From assembly GCF_004168365.1 (NCBI RefSeq), contig NZ_CP035704.1, forward strand, positions 4,402,001 to 4,466,000: DNA of 64,000 bases. The letters are read 5' to 3'. Position 1 is the first letter of the stretch. Each line of letters starts with the position of its first letter. The translations under genes were made by a program, and so were the position numbers. Positions 39,785 through 48,930 of this stretch are shown in pieces. The stretch is from Pseudolysobacter antarcticus. Its GTDB lineage: Bacteria; Pseudomonadota; Gammaproteobacteria; Xanthomonadales; Rhodanobacteraceae. The notes under the pieces were generated by a model that was given only the letters and a program-made list of their open reading frames with translations, searched no databases and had not been told where the DNA came from.

Positions 39785-41536
39785 CTAGTTGCGCGCGACG
39801 CGGCTGGCATCCACATACGGTGGCAGATCGGCGTAAACACCTTGCTTGATCCGCTCCTGTTGCGCGAGCCACCAGCGCACGTCGAAAATTTCGCCATGGG
39901 TTTCCATCAGTGCTTCGCGCAACGGTTCGCTGAGGCCGAGAAAACGCAGAAATTGCTCGGGAAAAACATCGTTCTGGCCAACATAAACCCAGTCGCCCGC
40001 GGCCACGGTTTCATCACTTTCGTCGCGTGCCTGCGGCATCGCGCGGAAGCGGCATTCGCTGAGCAGGCAAAGCTCATCGTAGTCGTAGAAAATTGCGCGG
40101 CCATGACGCGTTACGCCGAAGTTTTTCAGCAGCAGATCGCCCGGGAAAATATTGCTCGCAGCGAGATCCTTGATCGCCTGACCGTAGTCGAGCACGGCGG
40201 TGCGCACGAGGTGCATCGGCGCCTCGCGCACAAACAGATTGAGCGGGCGCAGGCGGCGCTCGACATACATGTGGATCAGGATGATTTCATCGCCATCTTC
40301 GATCACGCTATCACGGCAACTCGTGAGCAATTCATCGAGCACCGCGGGTGCGAATTGCGCGCGCTGAAAACGCAGGTGGCGAAATTCCTGCGCGTCCACC
40401 AAGCGTCCGACACGATCGTGCTTGAACACCAGTTGATATTTGTCCATCACATCCTGGCGCAGCATTTCTTTTGGATAGGCGAAGCGGTCGCGAATCAGTT
40501 TGAACACGAGCGGATACGACGGCAGCGTGAACACGGCCATGACCATGCCGCGCTCGCCGTCGGCGTGCACGAAGCATTCGTCGGCATGCGTATCGAGGTA
40601 ATGAAAAAAGTGCCGATAGCGTTCGGTCTTGCCTTGTTTTGCACGACCAAGCACGGTGTAGAGTTCATCGATCGGCTTGCGCGGCAGCAAAGTGCGCAGG
40701 AACACCACGGCATCGCCGACTGTGGCAAGGTCGGCCTGGAAATACGCGCGCGTGACGCCGAATAAAACCGCGACGTGATCGCGCTCGGTCAGCACCGCAT
40801 CGACACGGATACCTTGCTCGTCGTGCACGAGTGCCATGACGAATGGAGCGAAACGTTCGTCGCCAAAGATGCGCCCGACCAGATAGGCGCGCCGCTCGCG
40901 ATAAAACACCGTTTCGAGCAGCTCGAGCGCGCGCACGGGTTCGACGCCCCAATGGCCGATGCGTTGGGTGACGGCGAGCGCGACACGTTGCGCACAGGCT
41001 TCGGCATCGGCAAATGCCGCAGCGAACGGATAGTCTTCCAACGCGCGGCGGAACAGCGCGACCAGATCCTGCGTGGCGATGTAATTGTGTCGCGCCACCG
41101 GATGGGTGATGGCATCGGTCGGCTCGATATCGAGCGCGACAAATTCGATCGCCGCATCGACGCCGCGGGTCTTGAAAAAACGTCGCGTGAGCGTGTTGAA
41201 AAACGTCTTGTTCATTTCCTGATCGAGCAGTGCAGCGATCAGCTCGCTGTAATTGCGGAAAATCAGCGCCCACAAATCGCGCTCGGTCACGCGTGTGCCG
41301 AGCGTCGTTTCGAGCCATGCGGTGGTTTCACCGGCGCAGAGATCGTACAGCTCGATACGCTCGACCGAATCCAGTCGCGCCGCGGCCCACTCGCGTTGTT
41401 CGAAACGGCGTTTGGCACGCTGTGTGATCGCGCGAAAACGCGTGTGATAGTCGGCAAATCGGCGGCGTATTTCCAACGCGCAATCGCGCGCGAGGGATTC
41501 GTCGTTGGGCGGATCGATCGAGTCGGCAGCATTCAT
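39785..41536 (-). CDS. aceK: Isocitrate dehydrogenase kinase/phosphatase AceK
   Basis: This 583-residue protein matches AceK in length and sequence (for example RNYSELIAALLDQEMNKTFFNTL, EDYPFAAAFADAEACA and a C-terminal QNDVFPEQFLRFLG). AceK phosphorylates isocitrate dehydrogenase on one serine to divert carbon into the glyoxylate shunt, and also removes the phosphate. Here it is not next to aceA or aceB; instead its ATG lies 9 bases after the stop of a LysR gene on the same strand. Its target icd is at 47632-48930, where the phosphorylated-serine region [10 protein letters not shown] is present. Confidence 0.96.
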   Translation of the reverse strand: MNAADSIDPPNDESLARDCALEIRRRFADYHTRFRAITQRAKRRFEQREWAAARLDSVERIELYDLCAGETTAWLETTLGTRVTERDLWALIFRNYSELIAALLDQEMNKTFFNTLTRRFFKTRGVDAAIEFVALDIEPTDAITHPVARHNYIATQDLVALFRRALEDYPFAAAFADAEACAQRVALAVTQRIGHWGVEPVRALELLETVFYRERRAYLVGRIFGDERFAPFVMALVHDEQGIRVDAVLTERDHVAVLFGVTRAYFQADLATVGDAVVFLRTLLPRKPIDELYTVLGRAKQGKTERYRHFFHYLDTHADECFVHADGERGMVMAVFTLPSYPLVFKLIRDRFAYPKEMLRQDVMDKYQLVFKHDRVGRLVDAQEFRHLRFQRAQFAPAVLDELLTSCRDSVIEDGDEIILIHMYVERRLRPLNLFVREAPMHLVRTAVLDYGQAIKDLAASNIFPGDLLLKNFGVTRHGRAIFYDYDELCLLSECRFRAMPQARDESDETVAAGDWVYVGQNDVFPEQFLRFLGLSEPLREALMETHGEIFDVRWWLAQQERIKQGVYADLPPYVDASRVARN

Positions 41537-41545
41537 GTCCGCAGT

Positions 41546-42448
41546 CTAGCCGTCCGCTGGTGGCTTGCGTACCGCGCGCGCCTCGATCTGCACTTCGGCG
41601 AGCAGCCACTCGCGAAACGCGATCAGCGCGGGCAGCTCGGCCGAGCGCGGCGGATAGACCAGATAATGCGCGTATTTCGACGGCATCTTGCGCGTGGTCA
41701 GCGCCACCAGCCGGCCATTGTCGAGCAGCGGCTGAATCATCGTATGCCGACCCAGGGCAATGCCCATGCCTTCGACCGCGGCTTTCAGCAGCATTTCGGT
41801 ATCGTTGAAACTCGCCACATAACGTTTTGGTGGGGTGCCGCCGAACTGTTTGAACCAGTCGCGCCAGCGATTGCCCGGATCGGCCAGCAACGGGTAGCCG
41901 GCGAAGTTGGCAAGTTTGGGTTTGCCGAGGCGTTGCAGCAACAACGGACTCGCGACCGGCGTGATCCATTCGTCGAACAAATGATCGGCCAGCAAGCCCG
42001 GCCATTTGCCGGGGCCGAAACGCAGCGCGGCGTCGATACTTTCGCGGCTGAAATCGACCAGCTCGGCGCCGGTTTGCAGATTCAACTCCAGCCCGGAATG
42101 CAGCGCCAGAAAACGACCGAGGCGCGGCATCAGCCAGCTTGACGCAAACGACTGCAATGCGCTGAGGGTAAAGCCCGTGCTGGCGCGGCCATGCAGTTGC
42201 GCAAACGCTCGATCGATGCTGTCCATCGGGCCTTCGACGGCGCTCAGCAGGCGCTGGCCATCGTCGGTCAGGCTGACGCCGCGCGGGCTGCGCGTGAACA
42301 GGCGTTTGCCGAGACGTTCTTCGAGGCCGCGCATCTGATGGCTCAGCGCGCTCACGGTCAGATGCAATTGTTCGGCAGCGCGCGTCAGGTTGCGCGTGCG
42401 TGCCGCGGTGACGAAGGCTTGCAGGGCGTACAGGTCAGGCTTGCTCAT
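41546..42448 (-). CDS. LysR family transcriptional regulator (GcvA-like)
   Basis: This 300-residue regulator has its helix-turn-helix at about residues 6-65 (LQAFVTAARTRNLTRAAEQLHLTVSALSHQMRGLEERLGKRLFTRS) and a GcvA-like effector domain (ARFGPGKWPGL, PLLADPGNRWRDWF, GMGIALGRHTMI). Usually such genes are divergent from targets, but this one runs directly into aceK with a 9-base gap. It may be read through into aceK or control glyoxylate metabolism. The substrate is not predicted. Confidence 0.9.
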   Translation of the reverse strand: MSKPDLYALQAFVTAARTRNLTRAAEQLHLTVSALSHQMRGLEERLGKRLFTRSPRGVSLTDDGQRLLSAVEGPMDSIDRAFAQLHGRASTGFTLSALQSFASSWLMPRLGRFLALHSGLELNLQTGAELVDFSRESIDAALRFGPGKWPGLLADHLFDEWITPVASPLLLQRLGKPKLANFAGYPLLADPGNRWRDWFKQFGGTPPKRYVASFNDTEMLLKAAVEGMGIALGRHTMIQPLLDNGRLVALTTRKMPSKYAHYLVYPPRSAELPALIAFREWLLAEVQIEARAVRKPPADG

Positions 42449-42991: not shown

Positions 42992-45268
42992 ATGGAGTGG
43001 CGACCGCAGAGCAATAACTTGAGCGAGCGGGATCTGCCGCCCTCGCCGAGTTCGCTTGTTCTGTTTTTCGGATACGTGCTCATTCTGTCGGCGCTAAGTA
43101 TTTTGGTTCTGCTGGCACGCAAGGATTCTCCACAGCTTGCCGATCTGGCGCGTAGCGCGGTGTGCGCCACCGTCGTCGTCGCGCTGATCTATGGCATGTA
43201 TCGCCATCGGCCCGCGCATACGTTGCCGTGGTTGCTACTCGGCGCCAGCGTGCCGCTGTGGTTTCTGCGCGCACTGTTGAATGGCCAAGCTGATTCGATC
43301 TGGCGTTTGGTGCTGATTTTCGCCTCGAACCTGCTGACCATTGTTTTTTTCGCCACGTTGGTGCGCTATCGCAACCTGACCCGCGATCTGTTGGTCTGGC
43401 TGGATATTGCGATCATCACGCTCTGCGGCGCCTTGCTGGCGCTGCGTTACATTACGGCAGAGTGGTGGCATTTGGTCGATGCCGATCCGCTCGCCAGCCT
43501 GCGGATCCTGGTGTTGCCGATGGTGCACGTGGCGATCGCTGGCGGCATCATGGGCGTGGCGTTGACGATGCGCCGGTTCAGTCTGTCGTTGTCGCTGATT
43601 TTGCTGGCGCAAGCGGCCTTGCTGATCACCGAAATCATGCGTCTCGATGTGTCGTTGTTGCATGGCTTGCAGTTGCCGGTTTACAGCCAGGCATGGAATG
43701 CGGTTGCGGCGCTCGGACTCATCCTATTCGGCTTGGCCGCGCTTAGCTCGGATATGCGAAATTTGACCGAACCCGGCCAATCGGTTTATCGGCTGTGGGG
43801 GCCTGCCCAGGTAACACTGATTTTTTGCGTGATCTGCTTTGCGCTCACCGCATTGGCGGGTGCACCGTGGCCATTGCCTGAGCACCCCGAAACCAGGCTC
43901 ATGGTCATCACTGCGATAGTCATGCAGGCCGCACTGTTGGCGCGTTGCAATATCGCGATCCGCAGCATGCACAGCGCGCGCAGCGAATTGTTACATCGCA
44001 TCGAAAACGATACGTTGACCGGGCTGCCAAACGAAAACGCCTTACGCAAGACCTTGGCGGTATGGCATACGTCTGCAACGCCGTTCGCACTGGGCTTGTT
44101 CGATATCAACAAATTCAGCCAGATCAATCACACCTGGGGATACGACGTCGGCGATCAGGTGTTGCTTGCGGTCGCGCGGATGCTGCGTGATAGCAAGCTG
44201 CGACGTGTACAACTGTATCGGATGCAAGGCGATGTTTTTGCGCTGTTGTTGCCCATTTATTCCGCACGGCAGGGCAAGCTGATACAACGCCTCTCCCGTG
44301 ATTTGCTGCAGAAACTGCGACTGCCGTTGCAAGTCAAAGAACACCGGCTTTTCCTGTCTGCCAATATCGGCATCAGCCAGAATGCCGATGCCATCAACAC
44401 ATCACCGGAAACCCTGCTGCGCGATGCCGAAACTGCACTGTTTCGCGCGAAATTGCAGGGCCCGAATACGCTCAGCCTGTTCGTGCCGCAGATGCATTTC
44501 GAGATCACCGAACGCCATCGCATTGTCAATGCGTTGCGCCAAGGCATGGGTGCCGAATTCAGGCTCGTCTATCAGCCGATCGTCACGCTCGACAGCGGCA
44601 CAACCACGTCGCACGAAGTGTTGTTGCGCTGGACGTCGCCAGAATTGGGTGAGGTTTCGCCCGCGCTATTTATTCCGATCGCGGAAAAAGCCGGGTTGAT
44701 TTGCGAGATCACCCACTGGGTGCTTTCGCAGGCATTTTTGCAGTTGAGCGAAATGCCGGACGATCAGCACCTGTCGATAAATATTTCGGCGCACGATTTG
44801 TGCGATCCGGAATTTCTACCGATCCTGGATCGGCTCGCCGGGGTATATGCAATCGATCCCGCGCGCATCACGCTGGAGTTCACCGAAGGCGCGTTGATCG
44901 AGGATTTCGAGCACATCCCACCGCTGCTGCGCGAACGTGGTTACCGGATTGCGATTGATGATTTCGGTACCGGCTATTCCAGCCTGAGCTATCTCATGAC
45001 CTTGTCGGTCAGCAGTGTAAAACTGGATATCTCGTTCATTGCGAATATCGAGCACGACTTGAACCAGCGTGCGCTATGCGGTGCCTTGATCAGCATGTGT
45101 CGCGACAACGGCTGGGCGGTCGTCGCCGAAGGTGTGGAAACCTATGCTCAGCACGAAATATTGCTGGCGATGGATTGTGATCTTGCACAGGGCTGGTGGT
45201 ACGGAAAACCGGTCGCCAAAACGCCTGAACATGGCGAGCTGAATTTGCGCTGGACTGCCGATGAATGA
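42992..45268 (+). CDS. Membrane GGDEF-EAL protein, EAL intact
   Basis: This 758-residue protein starts at ATG 42992 with AGAGGG eight bases upstream. About ten membrane helices fill residues 1-320. The GGDEF domain is degenerate: the signature reads RMQGDVFALLLP, so the GGDEF residues are lost and cyclic-di-GMP synthesis is unlikely. The EAL domain keeps its ligands: HEVLLRW (EVL for EAL), INISAHDL, LEFTEGALI, DDFGTGYSS, VKLD and AEGVET, consistent with an active cyclic-di-GMP phosphodiesterase. It overlaps the next gene by 8 bases. A membrane-embedded sensor-like N-terminus without a known sensory family was noted. Confidence 0.88.
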   Translation: MEWRPQSNNLSERDLPPSPSSLVLFFGYVLILSALSILVLLARKDSPQLADLARSAVCATVVVALIYGMYRHRPAHTLPWLLLGASVPLWFLRALLNGQADSIWRLVLIFASNLLTIVFFATLVRYRNLTRDLLVWLDIAIITLCGALLALRYITAEWWHLVDADPLASLRILVLPMVHVAIAGGIMGVALTMRRFSLSLSLILLAQAALLITEIMRLDVSLLHGLQLPVYSQAWNAVAALGLILFGLAALSSDMRNLTEPGQSVYRLWGPAQVTLIFCVICFALTALAGAPWPLPEHPETRLMVITAIVMQAALLARCNIAIRSMHSARSELLHRIENDTLTGLPNENALRKTLAVWHTSATPFALGLFDINKFSQINHTWGYDVGDQVLLAVARMLRDSKLRRVQLYRMQGDVFALLLPIYSARQGKLIQRLSRDLLQKLRLPLQVKEHRLFLSANIGISQNADAINTSPETLLRDAETALFRAKLQGPNTLSLFVPQMHFEITERHRIVNALRQGMGAEFRLVYQPIVTLDSGTTTSHEVLLRWTSPELGEVSPALFIPIAEKAGLICEITHWVLSQAFLQLSEMPDDQHLSINISAHDLCDPEFLPILDRLAGVYAIDPARITLEFTEGALIEDFEHIPPLLRERGYRIAIDDFGTGYSSLSYLMTLSVSSVKLDISFIANIEHDLNQRALCGALISMCRDNGWAVVAEGVETYAQHEILLAMDCDLAQGWWYGKPVAKTPEHGELNLRWTADE

Positions 45269-47513
45269 AATATCGTCGGAGCGGGATTTTTTTAACGCGG
45301 CGAAATTTGCGTTGCCCGATCGATTGCGCTTTGTACTGCAGCGTTATTGGCTGGCGTTCGTATTTTGTGTGTTGCAAGTCGCGCTGCTGATCGGGCAATC
45401 GCTATTGCCGAACGCCGATCTGCTGCTTCGGATAACGCAGCAAATCCTCACCATGATCGTGGTGTGCTACGGCATTCGTCACTATCGACCGACCCAGGGG
45501 CGGCCGTGGTATCTGCTGTTGGCATGGAGCGTATTGTCGCTGCTGCATGGCATGTTGCCGTTGTTCTTGGATGCAGAGTCGAGCTTGCATATGGTGCTCG
45601 GTTTTGCTGTCACCGTCAGCCTTCTCGGCTTCTGTATTGCCATCACGCGACGGCGCACGCTGGCACGTAATCCGGTGCTGTGGCTTGATATCACGATCAT
45701 CTGTCTGGGTTGCGGCCTGTTTGTATTGCGGTATTTTTTGATCGTCTGGTGGGATCGGATCGATGCTGCGCAAACTAATTTTCTGGTGTTGTTGTGGCCG
45801 CCGATCGTCAGGCTGAGTCTGTTCGCTGGTGTCCTGAGTATCGTGCTTACCGCGCGGCGCAACAGCGTATTGCTGAGCCTGCTTTCGCTCGCGCTGCTGA
45901 CGATGGTGGTCGGTGATTTTCTCTGGCTGAATTTTTACGGGCCGCATTTGCACATGCCCAGCACGGCGCACGACGGCCGCTGGCATGTGCTGGCGTGGCT
46001 GTCGTGTAGCTTGATCGGGGCGTCCGCGTTGCTGCCGCAAATGGTGCACCTGACCGATCCCGGGTTGCCCGCCTATCCGGCGTGGGGACGCTGGCGCGTG
46101 GCGCTGATTTTTGTCGCGATCAGCGCACCGATGATCCTACTCGGCAGTTTGCCGATACCGTTGTCCGAACATCCCGAATCGTTGCTGTTGCTCGGCGTCA
46201 CCGTCGTCATGGAAACGATCCTGATCGTCCGTTGTTATGTCGCGATCGTCGGTGTACGACGGGCACGCATGGAGCTGTTGCATCGCATCCGTTACGATGA
46301 ACTCACCGGCCTGCGCAATGATCATTCCTTGCGAACCCTGACAACACGGCAGGGCGAGGCGCTGACGCCGTATTGTCTGGCGTTGCTGACGATCGACCGT
46401 TTCAGCCAGATCAACAATACTTGGGGTCACGCCATCGGCGATCAGCTATTGCAGGCGGTAACGCACATCCTGCAACGCCATGACGATCCGCCTGTGCAAT
46501 TGTTCCGCACGGCAGAAGCCGAATTTGCGTTGTATCTGCCAACGAGTGACGAGCGCAGCCGGATCACCCTGCTGCGCAAAATCCTCACTGAAATCGGCAA
46601 ACCGCTGCAGCTTGGTGGGCAGCGGTTCTATCTACTTGCCAGTAGCGGTTTGAGTTTCAACGAGCAGCCCGAAGCGCGCTCGATCGATGACGTATTACGC
46701 GAAGCCGACATCGCGCTGTATCGCGCCAAACGGCGTGGCGGCAATGCCATCGTGGTGTTCGACGAAGGCATGCGCGAAGAAATCGCCGAGCGCCAGCGAT
46801 TGCTGGCAGCGATGCGCCAGGGAATCTGGCACGAGTTCAGCGTGGTCTATCAGCCGGTCATGCAACATGATCGCGATGAGGCGAGCTTCTATCAGGTGCT
46901 ACTGCGCTGGACCTCGGCAGAGTTCGGCAGCGTCTCGCCGAAGTGTTTTCTGCCGTTAGCCGAAGAAGCCGGTCTGATCGGTGAAATGACCACCTGGGTG
47001 ATGACGCAAGCGTTCATCGAACTCAGCCATGCGCCGTCGACTTTGTGCCTGCTGGTCACCATCACCGCACACGATCTGCGTGACAAAACCATCGTCGGCC
47101 TGCTCGACTGGCTGCATGCCGAATACGGCGTGCGCCCCGAACAGCTCATGCTGGAGCTGACCGAAAGCATCATGATCGAAGACGTCGAAAACGTGTTGCC
47201 GCTGCTGCGCGAGCGCGGCCACCAGATCGTGATCAATCATTTCGGCAGCGGACATTCCAGCCTGAACGCGCTGACCAGTTTACCGGTGGATGCGGTCAAG
47301 CTGGCGGAGCCGTTCATCGCTCAAATTGAACACAACATACATCAGCGCCGCTTGTGTCAATCGATGATTGCGCTGTGTCACCAGAGCGGATTGCAAGTGA
47401 TCGCGAAAGGCGTCGAGACCCAGCAGCAACGCGATTTGTTACGCGCGATGCACTGCGATTTTGTGCAGGGCGTGTTGTATGGTTTTCCGCAGAATCAGCC
47501 AGGACACGATTAA
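45261..47513 (+). CDS. Membrane GGDEF-EAL protein, both domains degenerate
   Basis: This 750-residue paralogue of the preceding protein starts inside its coding end (8-base overlap). It has a similar multi-helix membrane region. The GGDEF signature is replaced by TAEAEFALYLP. In the EAL domain, EAL is QVL, the NxSA motif is VTITAHDL, DDFGTGYSS is NHFGSGHSS and AEGVET is AKGVET, so most metal and catalytic residues are missing; only LELTES and the Lys of VKLAE remain. It is therefore predicted to be non-catalytic and perhaps a partner or c-di-GMP binder for the first protein. Operon structure supports a shared complex. Confidence 0.88.
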   Translation: MNEISSERDFFNAAKFALPDRLRFVLQRYWLAFVFCVLQVALLIGQSLLPNADLLLRITQQILTMIVVCYGIRHYRPTQGRPWYLLLAWSVLSLLHGMLPLFLDAESSLHMVLGFAVTVSLLGFCIAITRRRTLARNPVLWLDITIICLGCGLFVLRYFLIVWWDRIDAAQTNFLVLLWPPIVRLSLFAGVLSIVLTARRNSVLLSLLSLALLTMVVGDFLWLNFYGPHLHMPSTAHDGRWHVLAWLSCSLIGASALLPQMVHLTDPGLPAYPAWGRWRVALIFVAISAPMILLGSLPIPLSEHPESLLLLGVTVVMETILIVRCYVAIVGVRRARMELLHRIRYDELTGLRNDHSLRTLTTRQGEALTPYCLALLTIDRFSQINNTWGHAIGDQLLQAVTHILQRHDDPPVQLFRTAEAEFALYLPTSDERSRITLLRKILTEIGKPLQLGGQRFYLLASSGLSFNEQPEARSIDDVLREADIALYRAKRRGGNAIVVFDEGMREEIAERQRLLAAMRQGIWHEFSVVYQPVMQHDRDEASFYQVLLRWTSAEFGSVSPKCFLPLAEEAGLIGEMTTWVMTQAFIELSHAPSTLCLLVTITAHDLRDKTIVGLLDWLHAEYGVRPEQLMLELTESIMIEDVENVLPLLRERGHQIVINHFGSGHSSLNALTSLPVDAVKLAEPFIAQIEHNIHQRRLCQSMIALCHQSGLQVIAKGVETQQQRDLLRAMHCDFVQGVLYGFPQNQPGHD

Positions 47514-47573: not shown

Positions 47574-47605
47574 AAAAACAACGAGGCGCCGCAGCGCCTC
47601 GTTGT
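47574..47605 (-). terminator. Intrinsic terminator of icd
   Basis: The arms ACAACGAGGCGC (47578-47589) and GCGCCTCGTTGT (47594-47605) form a 12-bp stem with a 4-base loop. On the minus strand it is followed by a short run of T (47574-47578). It lies just after the icd stop codon. Confidence 0.8.
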
Positions 47606-47631: not shown

Positions 47632-48930
47632 TTACAAACCCTTGATCAACTCATCGGCAAACTCGGAGCATTTGACTTCGGTGGCGCCGTCCATCTGACG
47701 CGCGAAATCGTAGGTCACGTGCTTGCTGGCAATCGCCTTGTCCATCGCGCTGATGATCGCATCGGCGGCTTCGGTCCAGCCCATGTAGCGCAGCATCATT
47801 TCACCGGAGAGCACGACCGAACCCGGATTGACTTTGTCCAGGCCGGCGTACTTCGGCGCGGTGCCGTGGGTAGCTTCAAACACGGCATGACCGGTCAGAT
47901 AATTGATGTTGCCGCCCGGTGCGATGCCGATGCCGCCAACTTGCGCGGCGAGCGCGTCGGACAAATAATCGCCGTTGAGATTCAAGGTGGCGATCACGTC
48001 GAATTCTTCCGGACGCGTCAGCACCTGCTGCAAGGTGATGTCGGCGATCGCATCCTTGATCAGGATCTTGCCCGATACCAAGGCGGTTTTCTGCTCGGCG
48101 TTGGCTTCAGCCTCGCCCTTGGCGGCCTTGGTCTTTTCCCACTGCTCCCAAGTGTAGACCTTATCGCCGAATTCGCGCTCGGCCAAGGCGTAACCCCAGT
48201 TGCGGAACGCGCCTTCGGTGAACTTCATAATGTTGCCCTTGTGCACGAAGGTCACGCTCTTGCGATTGTTGGTGATCGCGTATTCGATCGCGGCGCGGAT
48301 CAGACGCTCCGAGCCGTCCTTCGACACCGCCTTGATGCCGATGCCCGAGGTTTCCGGGAAACGAATCTTGCTGAACTCTTTCGGGAAATTTTCCTTGAAC
48401 AGATCGAGGAACTTCTTGTTCGCATCGGTGCCGGCTTCGAACTCGATACCGGCGTAGATGTCTTCGCAGTTCTCGCGGAAGATCACCATCTCGACTTTTT
48501 CCGGATGCTTGACCGGTGACGGCACACCCTTGAACCAGCGCACCGGGCGCAGGCACACATACAGGTCGAGCATCTGCCGCAAGGCGACGTTGAGCGAGCG
48601 AATACCGCCACCGATCGGCGTGGTCAGCGGACCCTTGATCGACACCAGATATTCGCGACAGGCTTCGACCGTCGCATTCGGTAGCCACGTGCCGAACTGG
48701 TTGTTGGCTTTCTCGCCGGCGTAGATTTCCATCCAGTGAATCTTGCGCTTGCCGCCATAGGCTTTTTCGACGGCGGCATCGAACACACGCACCGAGGCGC
48801 GCCAGATATCCGCGCCGGTGCCATCGCCTTCGATGAACGGCACGATCGGGTTGTTCGGCACGTTCAGCGTGCCGTTGTTGATCGTGATCTTGGCGCCGCC
48901 AGCGGGCGCGGTGAAGGTTGGCTCAGCCAT
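47632..48930 (-). CDS. icd: NADP-dependent isocitrate dehydrogenase
   Basis: This 432-residue enzyme decarboxylates isocitrate to 2-oxoglutarate in the TCA cycle. Family features include [12 protein letters not shown] near the N-terminus, [26 protein letters not shown] (broken here as [10 protein letters not shown] and [10 protein letters not shown]), and [39 protein letters not shown] and [13 protein letters not shown]. The serine in [10 protein letters not shown] corresponds to the AceK target (Ser113 in E. coli). CGGAG lies nine bases upstream of the ATG. A terminator follows. It is convergent with the GGDEF-EAL pair. Confidence 0.97.

Follow-up and report, generated by a model that had tools for sequence, protein, structure and literature searches.

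For proteins with a degenerate EAL domain, the partner is often the open question. FimX, the c-di-GMP receptor of the type IV pilus, has degenerate GGDEF and EAL domains, as does CsrD, a transmembrane RNA-turnover factor; in Pseudomonas, the membrane protein LapD combines a dead GGDEF domain (RGGEF) with a dead EAL domain. Excerpts from the literature, including a review (PMC10333796), treat degenerate GGDEF-EAL proteins as a recognised class of likely receptors or interaction proteins. Excerpts on these proteins, on LapD and on GGDEF/EAL contacts (PMC3032553, PMC5635695, PMC5052742) indicate that in E. coli different GGDEF/EAL proteins contact one another as heteromers and that LapD, whose EAL motif is KVL with the Glu metal ligand replaced, nevertheless binds c-di-GMP. 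According to the review, it is the ExLxR motif that determines whether an inactive EAL domain binds (PMC10333796).

Here we describe two overlapping genes of this superfamily in Pseudolysobacter antarcticus, found in a window of 64,000 nucleotides (contig NZ_CP035704.1, positions 4,402,001 to 4,466,000) and both on the plus strand. Gene A (42992..45268) encodes a predicted c-di-GMP phosphodiesterase of 758 amino acids, with an N-terminal membrane domain of about ten helices (42992..43999, from hydropathy and a low-confidence model), a degenerate GGDEF domain (44009..44467) and an EAL domain (44531..45211). Gene B (45261..47513) encodes a paralogue of A of 750 amino acids, in which a membrane domain homologous to that of A (45261..46286, 34% identical) precedes a degenerate GGDEF domain (46293..46745) and a pseudo-EAL domain (46809..47483). 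The GGDEF and EAL domains were placed by Pfam and alignment, and in both proteins they exceed the Pfam cut-offs (for the EAL of A, PF00563 at 223.7 bits against a cut-off of 31.3). The stop of A and the start of B share 8 bases (ATGAATGA, 45261..45268). Because the two proteins align over their full length, N-terminus included, at 39% identity across 753 columns (E 1e-165), their likeness is not due to chance. The original prediction had proposed overlapping paralogues with a common multi-helix N-terminus, and its coordinates, the overlap and the N-terminal homology were all borne out. The pair is flanked by aceK-lysR (39785-42448), aceK encoding isocitrate dehydrogenase kinase/phosphatase, and by an isocitrate dehydrogenase-type gene, icd (47632-48930).

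The two EAL domains differ sharply at the eight columns that we take to be the catalytic set. These read E (in EVL), N, E, D, D, K, D, E in A, all intact, and Q (in QVL), T, E, N, H, K, A, K in B, which amounts to six substitutions (E to Q, N to T, DD to NH, D to A and E to K). The Gln of YQP, the Arg of xLxR, ExTE, the Lys and QG are retained in B. The metal ligands of RocR are given in PMC7911125 as E175, N233, E265, D295, D296 and E352, and its substrate-binding residues as Q161 and R179. All six ligands are present in A (ENEDDE) and five of the six are lost from B (QTENHK), which also lacks the KxD Asp. Both proteins retain the Gln and Arg that bind substrate (QR in A). An activity rule excerpted from PMC6629876 tolerates at most one substitution among nine residues; A falls within it, and B, with five of the nine changed, falls outside.

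The GGDEF domains of both proteins look dead in alignment. The motif is QGDVF in A, where the first metal Asp is kept, and AEAEF in B, where that Asp is replaced by Thr (LTIDRF), such that neither protein combines GG[DE]EF with the first metal Asp as an active diguanylate cyclase would. No RxxD inhibitory site was seen in A or B in this alignment, in which two rows are of doubtful value: L031, matched at E 6.1, does not represent a GGDEF domain, and L036 was matched only at E 1.2. The description of the first gene as having a dead GGDEF (RMQGDVF) and an intact EAL thus agrees with every residue examined, and the reported loss from the second of EAL (QVL), DDFGTGYSS and AEGVET is confirmed and extended by two further losses, N597T and D679A (numbering of A).

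From these residues we infer that A is an active phosphodiesterase, and B is almost certainly catalytically dead. That B is instead enzymatically active, through a changed mechanism or with a different nucleotide as substrate, might be argued from its retained Lys and ExTE Glu; with five of the six metal ligands gone and no acidic replacement at those sites, we regard this as highly improbable.

The losses in B were compared with a reference set of 32 EAL domains (from 28 of the 29 highest-scoring loci, three other loci of the same genome and a homologue from genome G032). A fragment (L056, 28% filled) and the two rows of A were left out of the counts, and a further EAL of the same genome (L004) was never included. 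Among the columns that are at least 95% conserved in the references, six of the eight catalytic residues are changed in B, whereas all 21 of the other residues are kept (p 5.9e-5). Having been picked by score, the references represent intact types; some are also closely related, and they do not amount to 32 independent rows. With the fragment and the rows of A kept, the losses were 6/8 against 0/15. When the published metal ligands alone were used (PMC7911125), five of six were lost against 1 of 23 other residues (p 2.9e-4). At looser cuts non-catalytic losses appear (7/35 at 90%, 11/44 at 80% and 20/63 at 70% conservation) and the contrast weakens (p 0.006, 0.011 and 0.045, respectively). In this comparison the loss is selective for the catalytic metal site, and the most conserved part of the non-catalytic core is untouched.

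The conservation data come from one orthologous pair, in two genomes of one genus. The sole relative pair found among the genomes searched lies in G016, which we take to be a Pseudolysobacter metagenome-assembled genome (JANXUW010000585.1). There the A-B pair occurs in the same order, with the identical 8-base overlap, between aceK-lysR and icd (locus L011). The B orthologue is 84% identical (91% in the EAL domain, 79% in the membrane part), its open frame is full-length as in P. antarcticus, and all six EAL substitutions are identical. The Leu and Arg of xLxR are likewise kept in both genomes, where the first residue of the motif is Q and not E. The dN/dS of the EAL of B was 0.15 (NG86) or 0.18 (YN00), against 0.05 or 0.06 for that of A; over the domains of B the values computed ran from 0.15 to 0.28, with no YN00 value for the GGDEF domain. 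By these ratios the EAL of B is under purifying selection. Both domains of B thus lack catalytic residues yet are conserved in this one relative. Since the same removal has been kept in a sister species, B probably serves as a sensor or regulator and has not simply decayed; that it is a selected, functional protein seems to us very likely.

On an EAL tree of 37 rows, which includes the L056 fragment as a long branch, A and B form one clade (100/97) and the homologue of G032, a single gene from another genus of the family, is its sister (96/89). The stem of B (0.75) is about three times longer than that of A (0.25), as might be expected of a functionless gene decaying after duplication. Against such decay stand the full-length open frames in both genomes, the low dN/dS, the absence of losses among the 21 most conserved non-catalytic residues and the identity of the substitutions in the orthologue; we consider it very improbable, and simple pseudogene decay of B was rejected on dN/dS and the selective loss. 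On this tree A and B arose by duplication of one gene. All EAL catalytic residues are intact in the G032 homologue, and no EAL partner was seen beside it by eye among the frames listed in the first 9 kb of its contig. Because this single-gene outgroup has an intact EAL, the losses in B are derived.

To trace the history of the site, the lysR region was inspected in six genomes, out of 59 in which lysR was matched. In G032 and G001, lysR adjoins icd in the orientation of the window, with 0.9 and 0.5 kb between them and no room for the pair; in G035, G049, G048 and G036, icd was not found within 16 kb around lysR. Because the gap in the former two is too small, the A-B pair probably came to lie between these two genes within the lineage of Pseudolysobacter. 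Proteins like B at E 1e-100 occur in at least 2 of 197 family genomes. A single-sequence search recovered the membrane domain of A from 2 of 299 order genomes. With a profile it was found in at least 3 of 233 family genomes and at least 1 of 369 class genomes and, at 1e-3, in at least 4 of 398 order genomes (two being weak partial matches of 19-20 bits) and at least 1 of 398 phylum genomes. These samples of family, order, class and phylum overlap, and the own genome is counted in each. By these counts the membrane domain of A and B is rare.

This domain matched no Pfam family above cut-off in the N-terminal region of A, where a sub-cut-off match of 25 residues was the most that was found. Hydropathy gave 15 windows in A and 20 in B, and overlapping windows were merged by eye, alongside the helices of AlphaFold models, into about ten helices each. 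Those models, built on an alignment of four rows, were of low confidence (mean pLDDT 54.1 for A and 47.4 for B) and were not relied on further.

The ATG start of A agrees with its orthologue and with an upstream ribosome-binding-site-like stretch (duplex of -6.3 kcal/mol). Upstream of B no such stretch was found above background (-3.0 kcal/mol against -2.3, sd 2.0), which together with the overlap suggests translational coupling of A and B. A sigma-70 promoter scan returned 0 hits against 2.6 expected, and a terminator scan 9 against 6.1 (sd 3.1) expected. B and icd converge, and a perfect inverted repeat (47578-47605; 12-base arms, 4-base loop) lies in the gap between their ends. Noticed by eye and absent from the list of the terminator scan, it may be a two-way terminator.

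How do A and B compare with the described systems? The EAL domain of A aligns with those of MucR (7.6e-41), MorA (2.6e-39) and DosP (4.3e-36), all of them active phosphodiesterases. B, with Pfam matches at E up to 1 to GGDEF and EAL only, resembles LapD in being a membrane protein in which both domains are dead. In LapD the Arg just past the EAL motif lies at the centre of the binding site, and B keeps the Arg of xLxR. LapD, however, carries a HAMP and a periplasmic output domain; in B no HAMP was matched, and the membrane part is a domain of many helices. Membership in the LapD family (NF045673) was rejected for both proteins (106.2 bits for B and 110.9 for A, cut-off 1020), as was the CsrD family (NF008281; 81.9 and 93.9 bits, cut-off 663), although B shares with CsrD the transmembrane build and the degenerate state of both domains; the DibA family was also rejected on family score. 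FimX has degenerate GGDEF and EAL domains as B does, but it is not known as a membrane protein of B's kind, and it was rejected as an assignment for B, the EAL of which matches MorA best (1.9e-36) and FimX at 1.4e-13 at best.

The genome has a FimX-like gene of its own at a separate locus (L004 607-2763; G000:C2, about 2918092-2920248), a frame of 719 amino acids of GGDEF-EAL type with a degenerate EAL, for which the best solved match is FimX (7lkq, E 2.6e-78). A further observation concerns the locus L066 (G199:C1:4537000-4544000), where neighbouring frames of GGDEF-EAL type, on one strand and alike by eye, both have intact EAL motifs; this is one control, picked by eye among the matches listed, and carries little weight on how often such pairs degenerate. 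In the enterobacteria, YhjH and YdiV are soluble and encoded apart. PMC10333796 describes them as EAL-only proteins, one active and one inactive, of a single genome; the A-B pair resembles them in its predicted contrast of activity and differs in carrying more than the EAL domain.

No enzyme/pseudoenzyme pair of the A-B build was recognised among the titles and abstracts listed from open-licence literature on partners of degenerate EAL proteins and on tandem pairs. An intact phosphodiesterase-type protein and a twin without its metal site, encoded by overlapping genes and sharing a rare membrane domain, seem to be new. The original prediction had called the design little described, which appears right for the build of this pair; for the underlying idea, LapD, FimX and the contacts in E. 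coli are published precedents.

Taken together, these observations lead us to favour, with moderate confidence, a reading in which duplication was followed by a division of labour and B became a pseudo-phosphodiesterase partner of the enzyme A. A membrane-bound GGDEF-EAL phosphodiesterase would have been duplicated, and its copies would divide the work. The EAL of A would hydrolyse c-di-GMP, with its dead GGDEF, to judge from the residues, serving as a regulatory module. B would be maintained as a pseudo-phosphodiesterase that performs no hydrolysis and may bind c-di-GMP metal-free as LapD does. The two would be produced together through the overlapping start and stop, associate through their homologous membrane and GGDEF-EAL modules, and B would report the c-di-GMP level, a membrane signal or both, and so modulate A. 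Duplication, selective loss of the metal site, conservation in one relative and the overlap are established at the level of sequence; the regulation of A by B is a step that we infer. Because A and B share homologous membrane and GGDEF-EAL modules, a hetero-oligomer is likely, and we hold the existence of an A-B complex to be somewhat the better bet.

The chief alternative is that B works independently of A, as a c-di-GMP receptor or a scaffold like LapD, FimX or CsrD with a target elsewhere, and is adjacent to A only through duplication and shared transcription. The precedent of degenerate GGDEF-EAL proteins as receptors or interaction proteins fits this, as do the intact state of the most conserved non-catalytic columns and the EAL dimer helix, which has no excess of A-B likeness (5 of 21 variable columns identical in four sequences, against 56 of 150; p 0.33). 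However, the pair and its 8-base overlap are preserved in both genomes, and the membrane domain of B is still of A's kind, neither of which would be needed if B worked elsewhere. We therefore find a stand-alone B doubtful.

If A and B do form a complex, the role of the ligand is the next issue. B should not hydrolyse c-di-GMP but may bind it, because the metal site is mostly gone and the scaffold of the pocket remains together with the Gln and Arg. This step is uncertain because the motif of B is QxLxR and not ExLxR; moreover, the Glu-to-Lys (AKGVET) and Asp-to-His changes might stand in for the metal, but could equally well impair binding of the ligand. Across all readings together, we put the chance that B binds c-di-GMP at slightly short of even, and a complex in which it does so is a tentative proposal. 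B could also act on A as a structural or dominant-negative subunit, its EAL pairing with that of A and tuning it, with no c-di-GMP binding, a variant that lies inside our estimate for the complex and that we judge unlikely. According to excerpts of the literature, EAL phosphodiesterases dimerise and the dimer helps to place a metal-binding Asp, and B has lost both loop-6 Asp residues (DD to NH) while keeping the most conserved core, all of which suits such a partner. The retention of both published substrate-binding residues would be unexplained if there were no ligand, and the dimer helix again provides no interface signal.

In summary, we favour an A-B pair in which B regulates A. The original prediction was of a phosphodiesterase and a pseudoenzyme partner in one membrane complex: an active-type phosphodiesterase beside a conserved pseudoenzyme is upheld, the losses being kept and identical in the one relative, with purifying selection and an intact core, and the single complex stays a matter of interpretation. 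In its fullest and, to our mind, improbable form, the pair would be a two-subunit c-di-GMP thermostat within one membrane complex, in which the metal-free pocket of B senses the molecule and gates the phosphodiesterase A. If this were true, the sensing and the hydrolysis of one molecule would have been split between duplicates, mainly by removal of the metal site. For the pseudoenzyme B, a probable partner is suggested by the overlapping paralogous gene with an intact EAL. The Pseudolysobacter pair thus offers a small, clean system in which to ask if an enzyme can be regulated by its own pseudo-phosphodiesterase twin, and if the loss of little more than the metals is enough to turn an EAL pocket into a receptor.
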